Both the position numbers and the translations under genes were made by a program. 34,801 nucleotides of DNA from a virus: positions 1 through 34,801 of the IMG/VR virus record IMGVR_UViG_3300042472_000280; one strand, given 5' to 3'. Each line of letters opens with the position of its first letter. The first letter of the stretch is position 1. Positions 3,096-33,000 of this stretch are shown here, piece after piece. Below the pieces are notes generated by a model. It saw only the letters and a list, made by a program, of their open reading frames with translations. It was not told the DNA's origin and ran no database searches.

Positions 3096-3108
3096 TTTCG
3101 TATATTTG
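3076..3108 (+). promoter_or_regulatory. Promoter for leader RNA 1
   Basis: TTG at 3076-3078 and TATATTTG at 3101-3108, with 22 bases between, fit the Bacteroidota promoter. The predicted transcript start is about 3112-3114, just before leader RNA 1. The -33 element lies inside the small terminase gene. Confidence 0.6.
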
Positions 3109-3111
3109 TAT

Positions 3112-3199
3112 ATCGGAATTCAGGAAGTCGATAATTAAAAGTTAATCTAAAGATATGCGAGTACACGCCTGAATCGTGGAAAGCGTATCTTTTTTTATT
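3112..3199 (+). ncRNA. Structured leader RNA 1 with terminator-like hairpin (attenuator candidate)
   Basis: Between promoter and start codon: ATTCAGG (3118-3124), then CAGGAAG (3121-3127), a small AT hairpin (ATTAA 3134-3138 / TTAAT 3142-3146), then a stem AAAGATATGC (3149-3158) / GCGTATCTTT (3183-3192) followed by T's up to 3196. Inside it CACG (3164-3167) / CGTG (3175-3178) presents CCTGAAT (3168-3174) as a seven-base loop, exactly complementary to ATTCAGG upstream. This allows a pseudoknot that could stabilise or disrupt the terminator. The same architecture with different bases occurs at 30398-30504. It is not a family I can name. Confidence 0.6.
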
Positions 3200-3784
3200 A
3201 TGATAGGAATTTATAAAATTACAAGCCCAACGAAAAGAGTTTATATCGGTCAAAGTTTAGATATTAAAAAAAGAATTAGTAAGTATAAATATAATGATTG
3301 TAAAAAACAACCTAGACTTTATAATTCATTAAAAAAATACGGATTTGAAAGCCACACTTTTGAAGTTATAGAGGAATGCAGTATTGATTTACTTAATGAT
3401 AGAGAAAGATATTATCAAGAATTTTATAATGTTTTGGAAATCGGATTAAATTGTAATTTGGTAAAAACAGAATTCAAGAAAATGAAACATAGTCAAGAAA
3501 GCATTTTAAAAATTAAAGAAGCTAGTAGAAATAGAGTTTTTTCTGAAGAATCAAAAGATAAAATCAGACAAAAAGCATTAAATAGAAAAGCAACTACAGA
3601 AACTAAATTAAAGCTATCTAAATCTGCTAAAAAAACAAAAAACGGTAAAAAAATAGTTTTAGATATAAACACAGGTATATTTTATGAAAGTGTTTTTGAG
3701 TTATGTTGTATTATTAAAAAATATAAATTAACATATTTAAGAAAATTAATAAGAGATAAAAAAACACAATACATATATGCTTAA
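3200..3784 (+). CDS. GIY-YIG homing endonuclease
   Basis: This 194-residue selfish endonuclease cuts DNA at or near its insertion site in related genomes so that repair copies it in. ATG 3200 is chosen because the GIY motif then sits at residues 3-5; an upstream GTG at 3176 lies inside the leader hairpin. The domain shows GIY (3-5), YIG (15-17), Arg25 and Glu69 of the active site. The C-terminal half has NUMOD3-like repeats (SQESILKIKEASRNR, SEESKDKIRQKALNRK) and a NUMOD1-like DNA-binding end. Its last eight bases overlap the large terminase start. All catalytic residues are present, so it is probably active. Confidence 0.85.
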   Translation: MIGIYKITSPTKRVYIGQSLDIKKRISKYKYNDCKKQPRLYNSLKKYGFESHTFEVIEECSIDLLNDRERYYQEFYNVLEIGLNCNLVKTEFKKMKHSQESILKIKEASRNRVFSEESKDKIRQKALNRKATTETKLKLSKSAKKTKNGKKIVLDINTGIFYESVFELCCIIKKYKLTYLRKLIRDKKTQYIYA

Positions 3785-11651: not shown

Positions 11652-14274
11652 TATTGATTTAATAGTAAGTAAAGAGGCACAAGCTGGACTTGATGCATTA
11701 TATAAATCATTGACAAAAACACATGAAGAAGTAGTTGCAATTTCAAAACTACAACTTTCTTTTAATGGTGGTCAATCACCTAAAAGTGTTACTGATTTAA
11801 ACGAAAAAATAAAGGATCAAGCAAAAATTCAGGCTCAATTAGAAAAACAAATTGAAAGGAACAGACTTGCAGAAATAAGACTACAACAAACAAGGGAAAA
11901 AGCCTTTGATAAATATACTGCACAATTACAAAAGGAAGAAGCCAAACTAAAAGCATCCGAATCAGTTTACAATAAAATTCAAAATAGTATGAATTTATTG
12001 CAAAAAAGCTATAAAGATTTAGCTATTAGAAAGGAATTAGGAAGCCAATTAACAGATAAAGAGGAGAAAAGTTTAGAACGGTTAGGTAAAAGAATACAAG
12101 ACTATGATAGAGCCTTAAAAGCTGTTGATGGTCAAATGGGTAAATACCAGCGAAATGTTGGTAACTATGCTGGGGCTTTTAATCCATTAAGCAACTCAAT
12201 CAATCAATTAAGCCGTGAAATGCCAGCCTTTGCAAATTCCGTACAAACTGGATTTATGGCAATTTCGAATAACTTACCTATATTTTTTGATGCTATGGGT
12301 GGCATCATTAATCAAAATAAAGAATTACAGAAACAAGGATTACCAACTCAATCTGTATTTAAACAACTTGCCGCTTCTGTTTTTAGTTTAGGAACTGCAT
12401 TAAGTGTTGGAGTTACTTTGCTTACTTTATATGGCAAAGATATTGTAACCTTTATAGGTAAATTATTTGATGGCGGTAAACAGATGCAAACTATATCTGA
12501 TCAAATGAATCAAATAACGGATGCAAGAAAAAAAGCTTCTGAAAGCGCATCGACTGAGATATCTGAATTAGATACACTTTATAAAGTAAGTCAGGATGTT
12601 TCAATATCTATTGATCAAAGGCGTGAGGCGGTTAATAAGTTACAGGAACTTTATCCAAACTTTTTAGCTAATATATCAGACGAAAACATTTTAAATGGTA
12701 AAGCTGAAAGTCAATATTATAAGCTTAGAGATGCTATAATGGCAAAATATATGGCACAAGCAATTGGCGACAAATTAGCAGAAAACGCAAAAGATAGTTT
12801 AGAGGATTATTTAAGTATTCAAGAAAAAATACAAGAAACAGAAACTGAAATTGCAAAATTAAGAAAGAGTGGTAAAGATTTAATTATTCCTGGATCAAGA
12901 GAAGAAAAAACTCAAACAATTAGAATATCTAATAATGATTTGATTTTAGCACAAGAAAGAAAATTAATAATATTAAATAAGGATAAAAACAATTTAAAAA
13001 CACAAGAAAGACAAGAAAATTCATTGCTTATTAAAACTATGCAAGAAATGCTTGTTCAGGCTAAGCCATTGGAAATTGAAGACAAAAAACAAATTTCAAG
13101 AACAAAAGAAAAAACCAAATTAGCAAAAGAAAAAATAAAAGTTGACAAAGAAATAAACAGAGGGACTGAAGAATATTTTCTTTCTGAAATTTCACGTTTG
13201 GAAAAATTAAGGTCGTCAGTTGCAACAACTACAAAAGAATATGAATCATATAACGCACAATTAGAGTTATTAAACGCAAGTTTGATGTATTTAAGAGGTG
13301 GCGAAAGGTTAAATATGGCTGGATTAGTAACTGGTGGCAAAAGCGAAATTGAACAACTTCCAATATCGGCAAAAGAAAGTTTAGAGCAAACAAGCCAATA
13401 TTTGCAAGGTTTTTACGATCAATTTGGAAGTGAATCGGGTATGCCAACTTTGTTTAAGGTTATGAATAAAGAGATTGAAGGCTTTGGCGACAATTGGAAA
13501 GTTACTGCCGTAGCGATGATGGAAATAGGTCAGGAATTGACTAATACATTAATGAAACAAAGCGAGGCACGTTTTAATGCTGAATATGCACGTTTAGAAC
13601 AACAAAAAAATATATCAATTGCATTTGCTGGAAGTAGTGCAACGGCTAAATCTGAAATAGAGCGCCAATATGAAGAAAAACGAAAATCAATACAAAGGCG
13701 ACAAGCTCAAGACGAAAAGAAACAGGCTATGTTTAATATCGCAATAAATACAGCTCAAGCGGTTATGGCTACACTTGGAAAAGGTGGTTTCTTTGCGAGT
13801 CCTTTGTCTATTGCAGTTGCTGCAATTGGAGCGGCTCAATTAGCTATGGTTGCAGCTCAGGAAATACCAGCATTTGCAGAAGGTGGGGTTCATGAAGGTG
13901 GAAGGATGTTAATTAATGATGCTAAGGGTTCAAAATTTCAGGAAACTGTTATAACGCCTGACGGTAAAGTACGACAGTTTAAAGGCAGAAATAAAGTAGT
14001 AGACGCACCAAAAGGAACGCAAATTTTCACGCCTGATCAATGGAGTAAGCAAATTAATAACTTACTTTTGAAAAACAATATATCACCGTTGCAAACAAAC
14101 CAAACCAACGGAATAAATAAAGATGATCTTGAAAGTGTTTTTAGAAAATACAGCGGTTCAAATGAGGTGGCAATTGATATAAATGAAAACGGATTTAAGA
14201 AAATGATTAGTTCAAACGGTAGAACGCGCGAAATATTAAATAGCAGACTAACCACTAAAGGCAGAATAGTATAA
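11641..14274 (+). CDS. Tail tape measure protein
   Basis: This 877-residue protein should set tail length and later pass into the host envelope. It has long N-terminal coiled coils (about 40-170, QIERNRLAEIRLQQTREKA and similar), a hydrophobic part near 235-270 (VFSLGTALSVGVTLLTLYG), more coiled coil, and a second hydrophobic part near 710-740 (SPLSIAVAAIGAAQLAMVAA) followed by FAEGGVHEGG, a signature common near the end of tape measures. Length predicts a tail of roughly 130 nm by the usual 0.15 nm per residue, an inference. Confidence 0.93.
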   Translation: MANSIDLIVSKEAQAGLDALYKSLTKTHEEVVAISKLQLSFNGGQSPKSVTDLNEKIKDQAKIQAQLEKQIERNRLAEIRLQQTREKAFDKYTAQLQKEEAKLKASESVYNKIQNSMNLLQKSYKDLAIRKELGSQLTDKEEKSLERLGKRIQDYDRALKAVDGQMGKYQRNVGNYAGAFNPLSNSINQLSREMPAFANSVQTGFMAISNNLPIFFDAMGGIINQNKELQKQGLPTQSVFKQLAASVFSLGTALSVGVTLLTLYGKDIVTFIGKLFDGGKQMQTISDQMNQITDARKKASESASTEISELDTLYKVSQDVSISIDQRREAVNKLQELYPNFLANISDENILNGKAESQYYKLRDAIMAKYMAQAIGDKLAENAKDSLEDYLSIQEKIQETETEIAKLRKSGKDLIIPGSREEKTQTIRISNNDLILAQERKLIILNKDKNNLKTQERQENSLLIKTMQEMLVQAKPLEIEDKKQISRTKEKTKLAKEKIKVDKEINRGTEEYFLSEISRLEKLRSSVATTTKEYESYNAQLELLNASLMYLRGGERLNMAGLVTGGKSEIEQLPISAKESLEQTSQYLQGFYDQFGSESGMPTLFKVMNKEIEGFGDNWKVTAVAMMEIGQELTNTLMKQSEARFNAEYARLEQQKNISIAFAGSSATAKSEIERQYEEKRKSIQRRQAQDEKKQAMFNIAINTAQAVMATLGKGGFFASPLSIAVAAIGAAQLAMVAAQEIPAFAEGGVHEGGRMLINDAKGSKFQETVITPDGKVRQFKGRNKVVDAPKGTQIFTPDQWSKQINNLLLKNNISPLQTNQTNGINKDDLESVFRKYSGSNEVAIDINENGFKKMISSNGRTREILNSRLTTKGRIV

Positions 14275-18525: not shown

Positions 18526-21309
18526 ATGGCAACATTAGAAATACGCAAAAAGAGTCTTAAAACTTGGCTTCACGTTCCAAGTGATGCGAGTAATTTTATT
18601 TTATCTAAATTCTATTGTAAAACGGACTCAAATACATTTAAAATTGTAGAAGAAAGCGGAAGCAATAGAAGGGAATATTCATACACTAATATTACTGTTT
18701 ATGATGATACAGATATAGGAACTCCTGAAACATTTGCAAGCGCTCAGGCTTTGATGTTAAGATTGGAAGCACTCAAATATACGGGTTTTAATAGGGATGG
18801 GGACATCCCAACATCGTACATTGAAAGTGTTGTAGCTGGAACTAACGTAACAATTGATGATACAGACCCATTAAATCCTATCATATCGAGTACGGGTGGC
18901 GGAGGTACTCAAAATTTAAACGAGGTTTTAGTCGAGGGTAATACTACAGGTGGCGAAAACATATCTATTTCAAGTGGCGATTCTATAATATTAGACAATG
19001 GCTCACTACTAAAAAAAGGTACAATTGACGCAGGTTACGGCGGTGCAAATGGTATATCTCAAATATGCGCAGTAGGTTACGAATTGAAATGGGAAGCTGG
19101 TCGGTTATATGTAATGGGCGATGGCGGTACAACTATAAGAGAAGTATCTCACAATTTTACAACTACTCCTGCTACTACAGACGATATAAGTAAAGGCTTT
19201 ATAGTTGGTAGTCGTTGGATTTTAGATGACGGTGATTTATATGTTTGTACCGATAACACAAGTACGGCAGCCGTTTGGGTATTACAGCCAAATATACCAA
19301 CAAAAACAAGCGACTTAATAAATGACGGCGACAATGGTACAAGTCATTTCATATCATTAGAAGATTTACCAAGCACATTAACAGTTTACCCTACAACTGT
19401 AGCAAGTGGAATTGGTGGTTATAATAAATTGGTATCTTCTATTACAGACCCTGACTATAATACCACAGCAGTAGATGTAAGCACTGGAGCGATAACAGGA
19501 ACGGATCAATTAATTGCTGGATTGATAACAGACCAAAACCAAATTGTCGGTAATCCTGGTGTATTCAATATAACCACTATCGGTAATATTAGAAAAACAG
19601 CTGGGTCAGGTCAGGCGGAATTTTTCTTTAGAGTTTATAAAAGAGATTCAGGCGGAACTGAAACATTAATACTACAATCTAACAATACACAACAAATTAC
19701 TTCGGCTATTTATGCTGAATTTTTTGCAAATGGTTTATGGAATGATGGCATTTTTGTTTCAACAGATAGAATTGTAATTAAATTTTACGGTACAAAAGTT
19801 GGCGGGGGTTCAAATCCTACTTATGACTTTCAATTTGGGGGAACATCTCCAGTGAGAAGTATTATTCCAGTACCTTTAAATGTTATTCCAAGTGGAGGAG
19901 TGCCATTAACAAGAGAAGAATTTAGTTACACAAGTTCTCATGATTTTACATTATCAGGTACACCAAGTTTTATTTATGCGGTTTTTGTTAATGGTCAAGA
20001 ATTAAACAGTTCTCAATATTCTTTTGTAACTACTACTTTAACAATAGATGACGCTTTAGAAAGTGGCGACAAAGTAAATATTCTTTATACACCGACATCG
20101 GGCGGATTTTTAGAGTATTACACGAAAGCTGAAATAGATGCCTTTGATTACGAAAGCAATCACGCAGAATTTATTGAGGTAAATGCTTTGACAGACTTAC
20201 CAAGCGCAATAAGCGGAGTAATTACATTAGTAGGCGGTTATACTTACTTATTTTTAAAACACATCGACTTAGGAGGTTCTCGTTTGGTATGTGGTCAAGA
20301 TACAGTTATCGTAGGTTGGTCATCAGAAAATTGTTCTATTAGTTCAACGGGTTTAAGTAGTGGAACGGCTTTAGTAACTTCTGTTTATTCTTTACCGATT
20401 AGAAATATATCATTTACTCACGCTTTGGTATTTGATTTACAAGGCGATGGAACTACAACGGCTTTGGATTGGTTCGGGGTTAACCTTTTAAATTGTGCAA
20501 GCGGTGGAACGATTAAGAATTACACAAACTTTGTAGCAGGAGATAGCGCACTATTAAATAGTGGCGGTTTTATCTTTGATGGCACGATAGGTACAATAGC
20601 ATTTAGTAACTGCCTTTTCGATACAGCAAGTACAAAAACAGCTATTACCGTTTTGTCAACTTGTACCGTTAGCAGACGTTTGAGAATTATCTATTCGTCA
20701 TTTGTAACTTTATCAGGCGAAACAGGGGTAAATTTTAATAGTTCAGCAACGGTTGGCGATGAAAAATATATTTTAGATACTTGTAACTTTAGCGGTGGGG
20801 GTACTTATATTAGTGGATTTGATGCTACTTCTAATAAGTCTTTATTCTCAAATTGTGTAGGTATTACCAATACTTCAACGCGTGGATTTTTGCATATGTT
20901 GGACAATACAACAGCAACGGCAATAACAGGGACAGCTTCTTATTTTAAAGCAGCAGGAACTACTACAGCAAGTAGTGCGAACTCAAAATTCACTTCGCCA
21001 AGTTCAAACCGATTGACATATATAGGCGCATTTACACAAAGTTTTTTTGTAACTGTAAATTGTAATGTTAGAACTTCGGTTTCTACTCAAACAATTAATA
21101 TTGTAATAGTTAAAAACGGAACTAATATAAGTGAAAGTGAAATGACTATTCTTTGCGCTGCAGGTAGTACGCCTTCTTTTGGCGGTACACAAGCAGTAAT
21201 TGAGTTAACCGCTAATGATTATATCGAGTTATTTGTTAGAAATACTTCAAGCGTTAATAACGTTATAGTTTCTGATTTGAATATGAATATTTTAAAAATA
21301 CCTGTATAA
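18526..21309 (+). CDS. Large tail fibre / receptor-binding protein
   Basis: This protein has 927 residues. The first 110 form an attachment domain (LEIRKKSLKTWLHVPSDASN), followed by the fibre-type segment VVAGTNVTIDDTDPLNPIIS and glycine-rich linkers. Residues about 590-790 show a repeated short-strand pattern rich in N, S, G and T (FVAGDSALLNSGGFIFDGTI, FSNCLFDTASTKTAI) as in right-handed beta-helix fibres. The C-terminal 120 residues (TQTINIVIVKNGTNI ... NDYIELFVRNTSSVNN) resemble a C1q/TNF-like jelly roll, a common receptor-binding head. It may also carry depolymerase activity, but no catalytic residues are clear. Confidence 0.7.
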   Translation: MATLEIRKKSLKTWLHVPSDASNFILSKFYCKTDSNTFKIVEESGSNRREYSYTNITVYDDTDIGTPETFASAQALMLRLEALKYTGFNRDGDIPTSYIESVVAGTNVTIDDTDPLNPIISSTGGGGTQNLNEVLVEGNTTGGENISISSGDSIILDNGSLLKKGTIDAGYGGANGISQICAVGYELKWEAGRLYVMGDGGTTIREVSHNFTTTPATTDDISKGFIVGSRWILDDGDLYVCTDNTSTAAVWVLQPNIPTKTSDLINDGDNGTSHFISLEDLPSTLTVYPTTVASGIGGYNKLVSSITDPDYNTTAVDVSTGAITGTDQLIAGLITDQNQIVGNPGVFNITTIGNIRKTAGSGQAEFFFRVYKRDSGGTETLILQSNNTQQITSAIYAEFFANGLWNDGIFVSTDRIVIKFYGTKVGGGSNPTYDFQFGGTSPVRSIIPVPLNVIPSGGVPLTREEFSYTSSHDFTLSGTPSFIYAVFVNGQELNSSQYSFVTTTLTIDDALESGDKVNILYTPTSGGFLEYYTKAEIDAFDYESNHAEFIEVNALTDLPSAISGVITLVGGYTYLFLKHIDLGGSRLVCGQDTVIVGWSSENCSISSTGLSSGTALVTSVYSLPIRNISFTHALVFDLQGDGTTTALDWFGVNLLNCASGGTIKNYTNFVAGDSALLNSGGFIFDGTIGTIAFSNCLFDTASTKTAITVLSTCTVSRRLRIIYSSFVTLSGETGVNFNSSATVGDEKYILDTCNFSGGGTYISGFDATSNKSLFSNCVGITNTSTRGFLHMLDNTTATAITGTASYFKAAGTTTASSANSKFTSPSSNRLTYIGAFTQSFFVTVNCNVRTSVSTQTINIVIVKNGTNISESEMTILCAAGSTPSFGGTQAVIELTANDYIELFVRNTSSVNNVIVSDLNMNILKIPV

Positions 21310-27820: not shown

Positions 27821-27852
27821 AAATCGGTTATTAATTTAGCCGATTTTTTTTT
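27821..27852 (+). terminator. Terminator ending the early recombination operon
   Basis: AAATCGG (27821-27827) pairs with CCGATTT (27840-27846), with a T-run continuing to 27852. It lies just before the next promoter. Confidence 0.88.
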
Positions 27853-27919: not shown

Positions 27920-29287
27920 ATGACAGATTACAAAGAATTTTTAGAAACAAAAAGACACTCAATAGGCAACTATGGGTTTAAAGCAAATTACATTCCTGAT
28001 ATTGCTTTTGACTTTCAAAAATACGTTATTGAAAAAGCTACTTTAAAAGGTCGTAGCGCTGTTTTTTTAGATACTGGATTGGGTAAGACTTTAGTACAAT
28101 TATCTTTAGCTAAAAACATAGTAAACCATACCAATAAAAAGGTATTAATATTAACTCCTTTAGCGGTTGCGTTTCAATTTATTTTAGAAGCTGAAAAGTT
28201 AGGTATTGACGATATTGAATACTCAAAAGATGGCAAGCACACTAAAAAAATAGTTGTATGTAATTATGAAAGATTACACTATTTTAATGAGAATGATTTT
28301 GAAGGAGTTATTTTAGATGAAAGTAGTATTTTAAAAAACTTTGACGGTAAAATCAAACAAGAAGTAACAAGCTTTGTTAAGAAAATACCTTATAGATTTT
28401 TAAGTACGGCTACACCATCACCTAACGACTTTATAGAATTAGGTACGAGTTCGGAGGCGTTGGGGTATATGGGGTATATGGATATGTTAGGGAAGTTTTT
28501 TAAACAAAATAATAATGCAATTGATTCAACTAATAGAAATATTGGAGAAAAGTTTTACTTAAAACCACACGCAGAAAAAGACTTTTTTGCTTGGGTTAAT
28601 CAATGGTCAATTATGGCAAAAATGCCAAGCGATTTAGGTTTTTCAAATGATCGTTATAATTTACCTGAATTAATTGTAAATAAACATATAGTTACAAATG
28701 ATAGCCAAATTTCCATAGAGGGTCAATTACAAATGTTTAATATAGTAGCTAAAAATTTTAATGAAATTCGTTATGAACAAAAGCAAACGGAAGAAAAAAG
28801 ATGTGAAAAAGCTATTGAATTAGCAAAAAATAAAACTTCGGTATATTGGTGTAATACTAATAACGAAAGTAGTATTTTAAAAAGTTCAGATAAAAATGCT
28901 GTTGAAATTATAGGATCTCAAAGTATTGACAAAAAAGAAGAAATACTTTTAGCTTTTGCAAATGGAGAAATTGAAAGACTAATTACAAAGGCAAAAATGA
29001 CCTCTATGGGTTTAAACTGGCAGCATTGCAATCATTCAGTATTTTTTCCAACGTGGAGTTATGAACAATATTACCAAGCTATAAGACGTTTTTGGAGGTT
29101 TGGACAAACAAAAGACGTTACTATTGATATGGTTATTTCTGACGGGCAAACAAGGGTTTTAGAAGCCTTAGAACAAAAAACACAAAAAGCAATACAATTA
29201 CATAGAAATCTAACAGAAAACGTAAACCGTTCATTTGAACACAAAACAAAAGAATTTAACAAATCAATTATTAAACCTAAATTTTAA
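27920..29287 (+). CDS. SNF2-type DNA helicase/translocase
   Basis: This 455-residue SF2 ATPase has Walker A DTGLGKT (51-57), motif II LDES (132-135), motif III TATPSPND (163-170), and motif VI QAIRRFWRFGQT (386-397), typical for SNF2-like translocases. It lacks obvious extra domains. It is followed 12 bases later by a DNA methyltransferase; the two are probably co-transcribed. Roles in replication-fork remodelling or in protecting phage DNA are possible. Such pairs recur in Bacteroidota phages. Confidence 0.88.
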   Translation: MTDYKEFLETKRHSIGNYGFKANYIPDIAFDFQKYVIEKATLKGRSAVFLDTGLGKTLVQLSLAKNIVNHTNKKVLILTPLAVAFQFILEAEKLGIDDIEYSKDGKHTKKIVVCNYERLHYFNENDFEGVILDESSILKNFDGKIKQEVTSFVKKIPYRFLSTATPSPNDFIELGTSSEALGYMGYMDMLGKFFKQNNNAIDSTNRNIGEKFYLKPHAEKDFFAWVNQWSIMAKMPSDLGFSNDRYNLPELIVNKHIVTNDSQISIEGQLQMFNIVAKNFNEIRYEQKQTEEKRCEKAIELAKNKTSVYWCNTNNESSILKSSDKNAVEIIGSQSIDKKEEILLAFANGEIERLITKAKMTSMGLNWQHCNHSVFFPTWSYEQYYQAIRRFWRFGQTKDVTIDMVISDGQTRVLEALEQKTQKAIQLHRNLTENVNRSFEHKTKEFNKSIIKPKF

Positions 29288-30325: not shown

Positions 30326-30354
30326 AGCCGCTGAAGAAATTTAGCGGTTTTTTT
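30326..30354 (+). terminator. Terminator after the methyltransferase gene
   Basis: AGCCGCT (30326-30332) pairs with AGCGGTT (30343-30349, one G-T pair), and T's run to 30354. It separates this unit from leader RNA 2. Confidence 0.85.
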
Positions 30355-30362
30355 ATATCTTT

Positions 30363-30394
30363 TTGTTATTTATTCAAAAAAAGTATTATATTTG
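30363..30394 (+). promoter_or_regulatory. Promoter for leader RNA 2 and the primase gene
   Basis: TTG (30363-30365), 21 bases, TATATTTG (30387-30394). The predicted start is about 30398-30400, just before leader RNA 2. Confidence 0.7.
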
Positions 30395-30397
30395 TAC

Positions 30398-30504
30398 TCG
30401 TTGAAGCACTACCAACAGGAAGATATTTTAGACAATAGTCTAACCGAGAAACCCTAACCAGTAGTAGTGCATTGGTTGGGGTTTTCTCTTTTTTAAACAA
30501 TATT
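30398..30504 (+). ncRNA. Structured leader RNA 2 with terminator hairpin (attenuator candidate)
   Basis: GCACTAC (30406-30412), CAGGAAG (30416-30422), small hairpin TTAGAC (30428-30433) / GTCTAA (30438-30443), then a long terminator stem GAGAAACCCTAACCA (30446-30460) / TGGTTGGGGTTTTCTC (30473-30488) followed by T's to 30494. The loop (30461-30472) contains GTAGTGC, perfectly complementary to GCACTAC upstream, so a pseudoknot is possible. It repeats the architecture of leader 1 (3112-3199) with different pairing bases. It could be a riboswitch, an attenuator under protein control, or a stand-alone small RNA ended by the terminator. Confidence 0.65.
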
Positions 30505-32745
30505 ATGGAAAAACATTTTGTTAAGAAAATAGTTGAAAAAGGATTTTCAATTATACCAGTCAATGATGACAAAACACCGAAGGGATCATGGAAAAAGAAT
30601 CAGGAAACAGCTTATACAATTAATGAGATTGATTCTATTGAATCAAATACTTGGGCAATAATTACAGGTTATAATGACCTTGAGATTATTGATTTTGATT
30701 GTAAGGTTTTAAGTTCTTTAAAAGAACAAAATGAATTTTGGAATGAGGTTATTACATTTTTAAAAGATAATATAGATGACTTTGATAAAAAGTTTTCTAT
30801 TTATAAAACTAAAAATAAAGGGTATCATATTTTATACCGTTGCAAAGTTATTGAAGGTAATACTAAAATAGCAAAATTAAAAGGTCATAAAGAGGCTATT
30901 ATTGAAACACGTGGTAAATTTGGTTATGCAATTTTATATGATGACTGTATTAGCGATAATAACTATTCTAATATTCAAGAAATTAGTGAGGAGGATCGTT
31001 TTATTTTATGGTCTTGTTTAAAAACCTATAATTATGTAGAAGATTTACCGATTGAGCCAAAGAAAACAAAACACGAATATCAAGAAGCTGAAATTGCATG
31101 TTGGGATGACTATAATAATAAAACAGATATTTTTGATGTTATTGGATCTGATTTTAGTATAGTAGCAAATCACGCAAAAAAATACATTATTAAAAGACAC
31201 GGAGCAACCTCTCCGCATAGTGGTTATATTTATAAAGAAGATAATAGAATGTTTCTTTTTAGTACAGGAACTTTATATCCACACGAAAAACAAATTACAC
31301 CTTTTATAGCTTATTGTTATAAAAATCATAACGGTAATTTATCGGAAGGTGCAAAAGACTTATATCAAAAAGGTTTTGGATCTCGTTTAAAATCAAAAAT
31401 TAACGAACTTAAAGAAGAAATTCAAGTTCAAACAATAGTTAAAACTGAAGATTTAATATTTCCAATAGATATTTACCCTACTGATATTCAAAAATATATT
31501 TTAGAATGTAACTCGAAATTAGATAGTTCAGTTGAGTATATGGGTTGTTCTTTACTTTGGCTTATTTCTGTATGCGTTGGTAATTCAATTGATGTAGAAG
31601 TAAAAAAAGGATGGAATGAGAATTTATCTATTTGGTTATCTATTGTTGGTAAAGCTGGATTAGGTAAAACACCAAGTATAAACAATATAATTTATCCTTT
31701 ATCTAAAATAAACTCAAAAGAGATAAAAAACTTTGTTAAAGAAAATGAGAAATTCGAATACTATAACTCACTTTCTAAAAAAGAAAAAGACGAACATAGC
31801 GAAGTGCAAAAGCCTATTAAAACTCAATTTATTGCTAATGATATTACTTTAGAGGCTTTAGTAGATTTACACCAAGAAAGTGATAATTGTGTAGGTGTTT
31901 TTAAAGATGAGTTGGCAGGATGGTTAAAAGATATGAATAAATATCGGGAAGGTTCAGACCTTGAATTTTGGTTAAGTACTTGGAGTGGTAAAAGTGTTAA
32001 TTTTAATAGAAAAACTGCTAAAAGTTCATTTGTTGAAAAACCTTTTATTCCCGTTCTTGGTGGTATTCAACCGAGTATATTCAATACATTTTATACCGAA
32101 GAAAACAAAGATAACGGTTTTATGGATAGGATGTTACTTTGTTACCCTGATTTAAAGATTGATTATTATAACGATAATGAGATAGAAGATACTATTTTAA
32201 CGTGGTATAAAGAAAGCGTAATTTCTTTTTATGATACCATTAAAAGTATCATTAAACGTGATGAGGATGGCGATATTATAACTTTAACGGCTAAATTTTC
32301 AGACGATGCAAAGATAGAATGGAAACGTATGTTTAATGAAATGACCAACGTACAAAATGATAATGAGGAAAATGAGTATTTAAAATCAATGTACCCTAAA
32401 CAAAAATCATATATTCCTCGTTTCGCTTGTTTAATACACGTTTTTAATGAGTTTTTTAGTGAGGGTGGTAATTCTCTATTAATTTCAAAAGATAGTATCT
32501 TAAAAGCCGAGAAATTAAGTAAATATTTTATTGCAACGGCTAAAAAAATTAAGATTAATTCAGTTGAGGTTTCTAAGATTAAAAATACCATTGGTTTGAA
32601 TAAAGGTAAAAACGAGAAAGAAAAACTTTTTGAAATATGGAAAACAAATAAAAAATTCAATAGAAGTGAAACATCTGAACTTTTAGGAATAAGTAGAAGA
32701 AGCACGCAAAATTGGATTAAAGAGTTTGAAATTGTGCAAAAATAG
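30505..32745 (+). CDS. Prim-pol type primase joined to a DUF3987 helicase-like domain
   Basis: This protein has 746 residues from ATG 30505; an upstream in-frame GTG at 30472 lies inside the leader terminator. The N-terminal prim-pol domain has a metal pair Asp63/Asp65 (EIIDFDCK) and His108 (GYHILYRC). The middle is a linker. The C-terminal part (about 320-650) is DUF3987-like with Walker A GKAGLGKT (382-389), DE 468-469 in FKDELAGWLKDM, FWLSTWSGKSVNFNRKT, and a C-terminal helix-turn-helix (about 711-742, SETSELLGISRRSTQNW). It primes and unwinds at the fork and may load at the origin that follows. Confidence 0.85.
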   Translation: MEKHFVKKIVEKGFSIIPVNDDKTPKGSWKKNQETAYTINEIDSIESNTWAIITGYNDLEIIDFDCKVLSSLKEQNEFWNEVITFLKDNIDDFDKKFSIYKTKNKGYHILYRCKVIEGNTKIAKLKGHKEAIIETRGKFGYAILYDDCISDNNYSNIQEISEEDRFILWSCLKTYNYVEDLPIEPKKTKHEYQEAEIACWDDYNNKTDIFDVIGSDFSIVANHAKKYIIKRHGATSPHSGYIYKEDNRMFLFSTGTLYPHEKQITPFIAYCYKNHNGNLSEGAKDLYQKGFGSRLKSKINELKEEIQVQTIVKTEDLIFPIDIYPTDIQKYILECNSKLDSSVEYMGCSLLWLISVCVGNSIDVEVKKGWNENLSIWLSIVGKAGLGKTPSINNIIYPLSKINSKEIKNFVKENEKFEYYNSLSKKEKDEHSEVQKPIKTQFIANDITLEALVDLHQESDNCVGVFKDELAGWLKDMNKYREGSDLEFWLSTWSGKSVNFNRKTAKSSFVEKPFIPVLGGIQPSIFNTFYTEENKDNGFMDRMLLCYPDLKIDYYNDNEIEDTILTWYKESVISFYDTIKSIIKRDEDGDIITLTAKFSDDAKIEWKRMFNEMTNVQNDNEENEYLKSMYPKQKSYIPRFACLIHVFNEFFSEGGNSLLISKDSILKAEKLSKYFIATAKKIKINSVEVSKIKNTIGLNKGKNEKEKLFEIWKTNKKFNRSETSELLGISRRSTQNWIKEFEIVQK

Positions 32746-33000
32746 TGCGCAAATGTAAACTGCGCAAAGTTAATTTGCGCAGTAAAAACTCAATAAAATC
32801 AATACTTAACATATAAAAGTGCGCAAAATGCACAGTTTACATTAGATAATTAAATAAAAATAAAAATAAAAAAAATAAAATACTTACTGCGCAAGTGTGC
32901 AAATGCACAGTAAACCTTTGTAAAGCCTTGTAAACATTGAAAAACAACTGCGCAAAACGTGCGCAAAACAACTGCGCAAATAGTGCGCATTTAAAAATAT
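32746..33000 (+). other. Putative replication origin with iteron-like TGCGCA repeats
   Basis: Nine TGCGCA motifs occur at 32746, 32761, 32776, 32820, 32888, 32949, 32960, 32973 and 32984; the last four are spaced 11, 13 and 11 bases, about one helical turn. The region also holds TGTGCA/TGCACA variants (32897-32909), repeats of GTAAAC in both orientations, and an AT-only stretch at about 32842-32881. It is the longest gap of the genome and lies between the primase and helicase genes, the usual setting of an origin. Confidence 0.65.
32759..32783 (+). repeat. Perfect 10-bp inverted repeat in the putative origin
   Basis: ACTGCGCAAA (32759-32768), spacer GTTAA, TTTGCGCAGT (32774-32783). It contains two of the iteron cores in opposite orientation, suitable for a dimeric binding protein or a cruciform. 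Confidence 0.85.

Follow-up and report, generated by a model that had tools for sequence, protein, structure and literature searches.

Predicted kissing-loop leaders upstream of early genes in phages of Bacteroidota

Two leaders in one phage genome

The window analysed here is a whole IMG/VR virus record (IMGVR_UViG_3300042472_000280) of 34801 bases. It encodes terminase, capsid and tail proteins together with a YqaJ recombinase, a SNF2-type helicase, a DNA methylase, a DUF3987 primase-type protein and a VRR-NUC nuclease, and the nearest named phages to its terminase are phages of Flavobacterium. Two of its genes are preceded by leaders of one plan, leader B (3101-3199) before a GIY-YIG homing endonuclease and leader A (30387-30504) before the primase. 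The first-pass annotation had described a leader at 3112-3199. That leader is real, but its anatomy differs from the one proposed, since a hairpin at its 5′ end (H1) had been missed; H1 places ATTCAGG of leader B and GCACTAC of leader A in loops, so that the contact is one between two loops. The features, all on the + strand, are as follows.

3101-3108, +: -7 promoter box of leader B, TATATTTG, matching TAnnTTTG (Bacteroidota-type)
3111-3133, +: hairpin H1 of leader B, stem TATCGG/TCGATA with an 11-nt loop containing ATTCAGG (sequence, detector)
3118-3124, +: ATTCAGG, 5′ strand of the putative kissing helix, exact complement of 3168-3174; the equivalent helix covaries in alignment A1
3134-3148, +: A/T-rich linker of leader B; an AARAYATT-like core is enriched in family linkers
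3149-3197, +: intrinsic-terminator-like hairpin and U tract of leader B (fold, loop-E family alignment A1, -14.6 kcal/mol)
3149-3158/3183-3192, +: terminator stem of leader B, AAAGATATGC/GCGTATCTTT
3159-3163/3179-3182, +: putative bulged-G loop, GAGTA/GAAA
3164-3167/3175-3178, +: inner stem, CACG/CGTG
3168-3174, +: CCTGAAT, 3′ strand of the putative kissing helix, in the apical loop of the leader B terminator
3200-3784, +: GIY-YIG homing endonuclease ORF (Pfam PF01541), its ATG 7 nt past the leader B terminator stem
30326-30349, +: ordinary terminator with a GAAA loop, between the methylase gene and the leader A promoter
30387-30394, +: -7 promoter box of leader A, TATATTTG
30400-30416, +: hairpin H1 of leader A, GTTG [AA GCACTAC] CAAC
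30406-30412/30464-30470, +: complementary putative kissing strands of leader A, GCACTAC/GTAGTGC, the second in the terminator apical loop
30428-30443, +: mid hairpin of leader A, TTAGAC-AATA-GTCTAA (fold, alignment)
30446-30494, +: intrinsic-terminator-like hairpin and U tract of leader A
30505-32745, +: primase-polymerase/helicase-type ORF (DUF3987), its start codon 16 nt past the leader A terminator stem; downstream proteins in the family include Prim-Pol

With H1 stems in round brackets and kissing strands in braces, leader B (3101-3202) reads TATATTTG-ta-(TATCGG)a{ATTCAGG}aag(TCGATA)-attaaaagttaatct, followed by AAAGATATGC gagta-cacg{CCTGAAT}cgtg-gaaa GCGTATCTTT ttttattATG. Leader A (30387-30507) reads TATATTTG-tactc-(GTTG)aa{GCACTAC}(CAAC)-aggaagatattttagacaatagtctaacc, followed by (GAGAAACCCTAACCA) gta{GTAGTGC}at (TGGTTGGGGTTTTCTC) ttttttaaacaatattATG, where the last two round brackets enclose the terminator stem. 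In leader B, H1 sits at the likely transcription start, and its loop is predicted to form a kissing loop in cis with the loop of the terminator. Nested folding gives nothing notable for leader B (z = -0.61), while the leader A stretch, which includes the ordinary terminator upstream, folds far beyond chance (z = -6.5).

ATTCAGG, CCTGAAT and the terminator stem with its U tract had thus been correctly located, and the claim that both leaders share an architecture with complementary segments is borne out, GCACTAC/GTAGTGC having the same role before the primase. A separate small hairpin, also claimed for both, is present in leader A (TTAGAC/GTCTAA) but is marginal at best in leader B. CAGGAAG (3121-3127) had been listed as a further shared part; it overlaps ATTCAGG, occurs three times in the window against 1.9 expected and does not recur in the family, and was rejected as a heptamer shared by chance.

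The ordinary terminator ahead of leader A (GAAA-type loop, motif CTGAAGAAATTTAG) has a counterpart before a leader promoter in phage mumin6-1 (L209, approximately 12640-12665), and looks as if it insulated the leader from upstream transcription. Just 3′ of the primase gene, at 32746-32990, lies a cluster of TGCGCA/TTGCGCA repeats in both orientations, which resembles an iteron-type region and is possibly a replication origin; in one relative (L146) TGCGCA-like repeats are found upstream of the leader too. The helicase gene of the window (at 27920) is preceded by a terminator (27821-27846) and a TACATTTG box (27884) without a kissing leader, unlike the helicase genes of relatives L133, L005 and L210, which do have one.

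Related leaders in other phages

Relatives were fetched with the GIY-YIG protein (L004-L083), the primase (L084-L163) and the terminase (L164-L208). By eye, the same plan recurred in their upstream regions in different letters. We scored candidates with a detector whose terms were TAnnTTTG, H1, loop complementarity of at least 6, a terminator stem and a U tract. A first detector, without the promoter term, gave the two window leaders scores of 23.9 and 21.8, and three 35 kb dinucleotide shuffles reached 21.6. Two leaders within the window, which the first-pass annotation took as an argument against chance, are therefore close to what shuffled sequence yields. The reality of the family rests instead on comparative evidence, because the window alone is not far beyond chance. 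At a score of at least 22 the loci of the first 205 relatives plus the window contained 78 matches, against 2.0 per dinucleotide-shuffle set; at a score of at least 24 there were 60, against 0.33. Three scaffold patterns picked from detector matches were also scanned in IMG/VR, yielding loci that were not selected by gene, and raised the count to 142 distinct leaders at a score of at least 22. The family is large, carried by phages of Bacteroidota and apparently undescribed so far.

The computed plan consists of a promoter-like box, two hairpins and a terminator with its U tract. The exact -7 box TATATTTG is present in 99 of the 142 members and is mostly separated from H1 by 3-5 nt, which places H1 at or beside the inferred transcription start. 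The kissing helix is 6-9 bp long (mostly 7), with a median energy of -9.9 kcal/mol against -18.3 kcal/mol for the terminator hairpin. The two energies are uncorrelated (rho 0.04, p 0.62), giving no sign that the kiss makes up for weak terminators. Once the mid hairpin is removed, the effective linker has a median of 13 nt, a length that by general RNA geometry should suffice for pairing in cis in most members; its AARAYATT-like core is found at a frequency of 0.44 against 0.14 in shuffles. Every stem is followed by a U tract (median 8 T in the 12 nt around the stem end), partly through selection, as the detector requires one. In nearly all members a start codon lies 4-25 nt past the stem (median 15), and an ATG ORF begins within 60 nt of 94% of leaders compared with 25% of random positions. 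In the class of leader B the sequence suggests a bulged-G (loop E) internal loop, GAGUA/GAAA; its pattern, AGUA opposite GAA between two helices, is kept in alignment A1, which was itself selected for it. A few members resemble a hammerhead (CUGAUGAG, GAAA), but the family at large does not, and the idea was dropped. Near 1091 (- strand coordinates) and 1169 (+) of L274, leader-like elements with long H1 stems (12-13 bp) lie on opposite strands.

Outside these loci, two exact scaffold patterns were absent from 395 genomes sampled from one bacterial class, which, for those two scaffolds, would fit restriction to phages. A search with model R1 of the 395 class genomes and 395 genomes of its phylum returned nothing and was uninformative, only 10 candidates per genome being scored. 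No leader at a score of at least 19 was found in crAss001 (first 50 kb), Cellulophaga phi18:1 or phi38:1 (first 50 kb), and GenBank phages held no direct nucleotide relative of leader B.

The two loops change together

It had been argued that complementarity kept in two leaders of different sequence amounts to covariation. That argument is weak, because leaders A and B come from separate subfamilies, between which no base-by-base alignment can be made; covariation was nonetheless found across the family. Detector matches cannot prove complementarity, since the detector requires it. In a test independent of the detector, scaffold position alone decided which word of the terminator loop was used, a 7-mer for the loop-E scaffold and an 8-mer for the GGAGGCA scaffold. 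Among cases with a -7 box, the exact reverse complement of the leader's own loop lay within 95 nt upstream in 26/34 loop-E cases and 20/20 GGAGGCA cases, whereas the 7-8-mers of other members were found there in only 2/1072 (0.2%) and 0/272 (0%) of comparisons, respectively. The eight loop-E failures resemble chance matches of the pattern in coding sequence.

Alignment A1 contains 22 loop-E leaders chosen with the detector. Both sides of its kissing helix change in 7/7 pairs, with 92% of cells paired, and whole-structure covariation is 0.386 against 0.172 in shuffled alignments (0/500). Moreover, cultured Flavobacterium phages carry compensatory loop pairs at the same locus within otherwise similar leaders (GTGGAACG/CGTTCCAC, GTGAGACG/CGTCTCAC and GTGAGAAG/CTTCTCAC). 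Two loops complementary over some 6-9 bp, with covariation, are what defines a kissing loop, and both are found here.

Genes that follow the leader

The 92 downstream proteins included Prim-Pol (13), NUMOD4/HNH (12), DUF3987 (8) and GIY-YIG (6) proteins, along with helicases, DUF6291 and further replication-type proteins; no virion family was among the families listed (25 per library). This sampling is partly biased by the primase and GIY-YIG endonuclease queries, while gene identity played no part in the three scaffold scans. A detected leader lay directly upstream in 12/80 GIY-YIG relatives and somewhere within the locus in 53/80 primase loci, and is thus common but not obligatory. Muminvirus isolates and their relatives have two or three leaders each, with an endonuclease among the genes that follow and, in hattifnatt9-1, a helicase; the cultured Muminvirus carriers are reported to be virulent (PMC7077304). 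Flavobacterium phage FL-1 (L211) has two leader-like elements of other subfamilies, one at 18919 followed by a hypothetical gene at 19063 and one at 3690 with no annotated gene until 4201.

Exchange of leaders and genes between relatives

In the inspected junctions of terminase relatives without an endonuclease (e.g. L171, L172 and L165), the genes for the small and large subunits are continuous and no leader separates them. The first-pass annotation had proposed to check whether the leader is absent together with the endonuclease; in these relatives it is, and at the terminase junction a leader was found only with an endonuclease. These junctions support the view that leader and endonuclease occur as one insert. 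The suggestion of a moving element holds in this sense, but for a leader mobile by itself there is no evidence among the relatives compared.

Comparison of relatives also indicates that the leader and the gene downstream are separable modules. L164 carries leader B with a single difference (101/102 nt), next to a small-subunit region that is identical at 314/370 positions, and the ORF that follows is an HNH NUMOD4-type rather than a GIY-YIG endonuclease (named from sequence and family scan). Conversely, L185 has a GIY-YIG gene at the terminase junction behind a different leader. At the primase locus, L084 matches the window over 2138/2235 nt of the primase and 108/111 nt of the upstream region but over just 69/99 nt of the leader, so that leader A has diverged either by recombination or by fast change. 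The differences include compensatory changes in the terminator stem and in the mid hairpin (TTAGTC/GACTAA against TTAGAC/GTCTAA in the window).

How the leader might act

We consider it reasonably probable that the leader works as a cis-acting RNA attenuator on the early genes of these phages, probably determining the level at which each is expressed. Promoter, H1, terminator and start codon follow in this order, so if the promoter is used, read-through must control the gene; hence the label of attenuator. Transcription would start at the TATATTTG-type promoter, so that H1 is made first; after it come the A/T-rich linker and the intrinsic terminator, which has the complement of the H1 loop in its apical loop. 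The 6-9 bp kissing helix would draw both hairpins into one compact fold, and the polymerase would reach the U tract 4-25 nt ahead of the start codon. Some transcripts would be released at that point, giving RNAs of approximately 90-110 nt; in the others, transcription would continue into the gene behind the leader, be it prim-pol, helicase, replication or endonuclease. The fold would in this way set gene dose and perhaps timing. The kiss may strengthen termination, or it may hinder zippering of the stem and favour read-through. We infer termination, an effect of the kiss on its efficiency, and some form of regulation. This would not be the usual two-state attenuator, because no conserved antiterminator competes and the kiss does not exclude the terminator stem; across the 142 members, neither strand of the stem paired with upstream leader sequence more than in shuffles. 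Against an attenuator count the lack of an alternative structure that might act as a switch partner, the missing correlation between kiss and terminator energies, and an ATG so near the stem that translation could be what the fold affects.

An alternative, which we regard as unlikely, is that the leader, once terminated, builds up and acts in trans, its loops pairing with the H1 or terminator loop of newly made transcripts that bear that leader. This would resemble the antisense RNAs that control plasmid copy number, and the loop sequence would be the specificity code. Paired loops of 7-8 nt are the usual kissing format, their identity varies between relatives with compensation, leader A has diverged between near-identical flanks in L084, and pT181 attenuators are switched by a kissing antisense RNA (PMC4878617). 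Pairing in cis should usually win, and the virulent isolates (PMC7077304) have no lysogenic immunity for such a system to serve. The loops within one contig are always distinct (23 contigs), yet chance predicts this (P = 0.68), and it was discarded as a signal.

A common docking site is about as improbable: one phage or host factor (an antiterminator, an RNA-binding protein or a small molecule) would read the fold or the linker and switch all leaders together. The first-pass annotation had raised a single regulator of both leaders; such a regulator must recognise the fold, the weakly conserved linker or both, because the loop sequences differ. Rop/Rom, which binds kissing hairpins with little regard to sequence, provides a precedent. 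Several early operons of one phage have the leader, the fold is conserved while the loops vary, and the linker core is enriched as given above, but the mid hairpin and the terminator arm's internal loop vary from one subfamily to another, making a common surface uncertain, and Rfam returned no known aptamer.

Still less likely, in our estimation, is an element of translation or mRNA stability, in which the U tract would have no role of its own and the fold at the 5′ end would shield the message or restrict how easily ribosomes reach the ATG. H1 at the likely 5′ end and an ATG so close to the stem would suit it, as would the leader hairpins by which T4-type homing endonucleases are translationally controlled (PMC2988022). 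The start codon is not covered by the terminator stem, though, and the U tract follows the stem throughout (partly by detector selection). Finally, chance hairpins in A/T-rich DNA, to which the near-shuffle scores of the window by itself would point, can be set aside almost entirely, being refuted by covariation (in alignment A1 and in the compensatory pairs of cultured phages) as well as contradicted by the scaffold complementarity test and the comparison of the family with shuffles.

Under the preferred reading of a cis-acting attenuator, endonuclease cassettes would bring their own promoter and attenuator, able to stay when the endonuclease is replaced. The timing and dosing of early genes in phages of Bacteroidota is largely open in the literature that we found, and since virulent Flavobacterium phages in culture carry the leader in naturally compensated versions, its function is directly testable; the family is also a natural set of exchangeable loop pairs. 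More speculatively, and at long odds in our own judgement, this may be a phage RNA family in which a 5′ hairpin reads the terminator loop and freely changing loops give a self-specific address. Each early operon or endonuclease cassette would then have its own RNA dose meter, and related phages would differ in 'incompatibility type'.

Relation to known RNA elements

We found no published description of such a leader, although a 2017 list of 224 structured RNAs lay outside the search and a prior description there is possible. The window and 13 family loci gave no match to Rfam 15 at gathering score, the c4 model (RF01695) included, and lax local scans gave sub-threshold matches or none; BSnc120 and Chlorobi-RRM on leader A fell far under their gathering scores.

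Structured RNA also limits the expression of phage endonucleases of the T4 type (mobE, segB, I-TevI), whose hairpins either mask the ribosome binding site or are situated within coding sequence, with no kissing loop described (PMC2988022). Those hairpins, unlike the present family, are not shared with prim-pol or helicase genes, and here nearly all members have their ATG 4-25 nt beyond the 3′ end of the stem, so that no stem sequestering the ribosome binding site or start codon was found. The pT181 repC leader likewise has a 5′UTR hairpin and an intrinsic terminator before a replication gene, with loop-loop kissing as the recognition step, but there an upstream strand serves as antiterminator by pairing with the terminator stem, and the kissing partner is a separate antisense RNA (PMC4878617). 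The leaders described here kiss within one RNA, and with the terminator loop. They have, judging by sequence, the intrinsic terminator between promoter and gene, whereas an upstream antiterminator strand competing for the terminator stem was not found in the 142 members.

The P4 CI RNA, or c4 antisense RNA (Rfam RF01695), is a short, early-terminated phage RNA with complementary segments in a replication operon, and the leader family, with its predicted early termination, is similar in these respects. It is a processed RNA that acts in trans for prophage immunity, and the virulence of the cultured leader carriers (PMC7077304) argues against such a role here. The pT181 attenuators and P4/c4 are the closest in logic, and each fails at least one of the defining features tested.

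As for the contact itself, kissing complexes are known from RNAI/RNAII with Rop/Rom, the HIV-1 DIS and L2-L3 of the purine and lysine riboswitches. These share with the leader a loop-loop helix of 6-9 bp, often with a 5′ A before the paired bases. We know of no kissing complex in which one partner loop sits on an intrinsic terminator; a terminator loop kissed in cis would add an architecture to RNA-based control.
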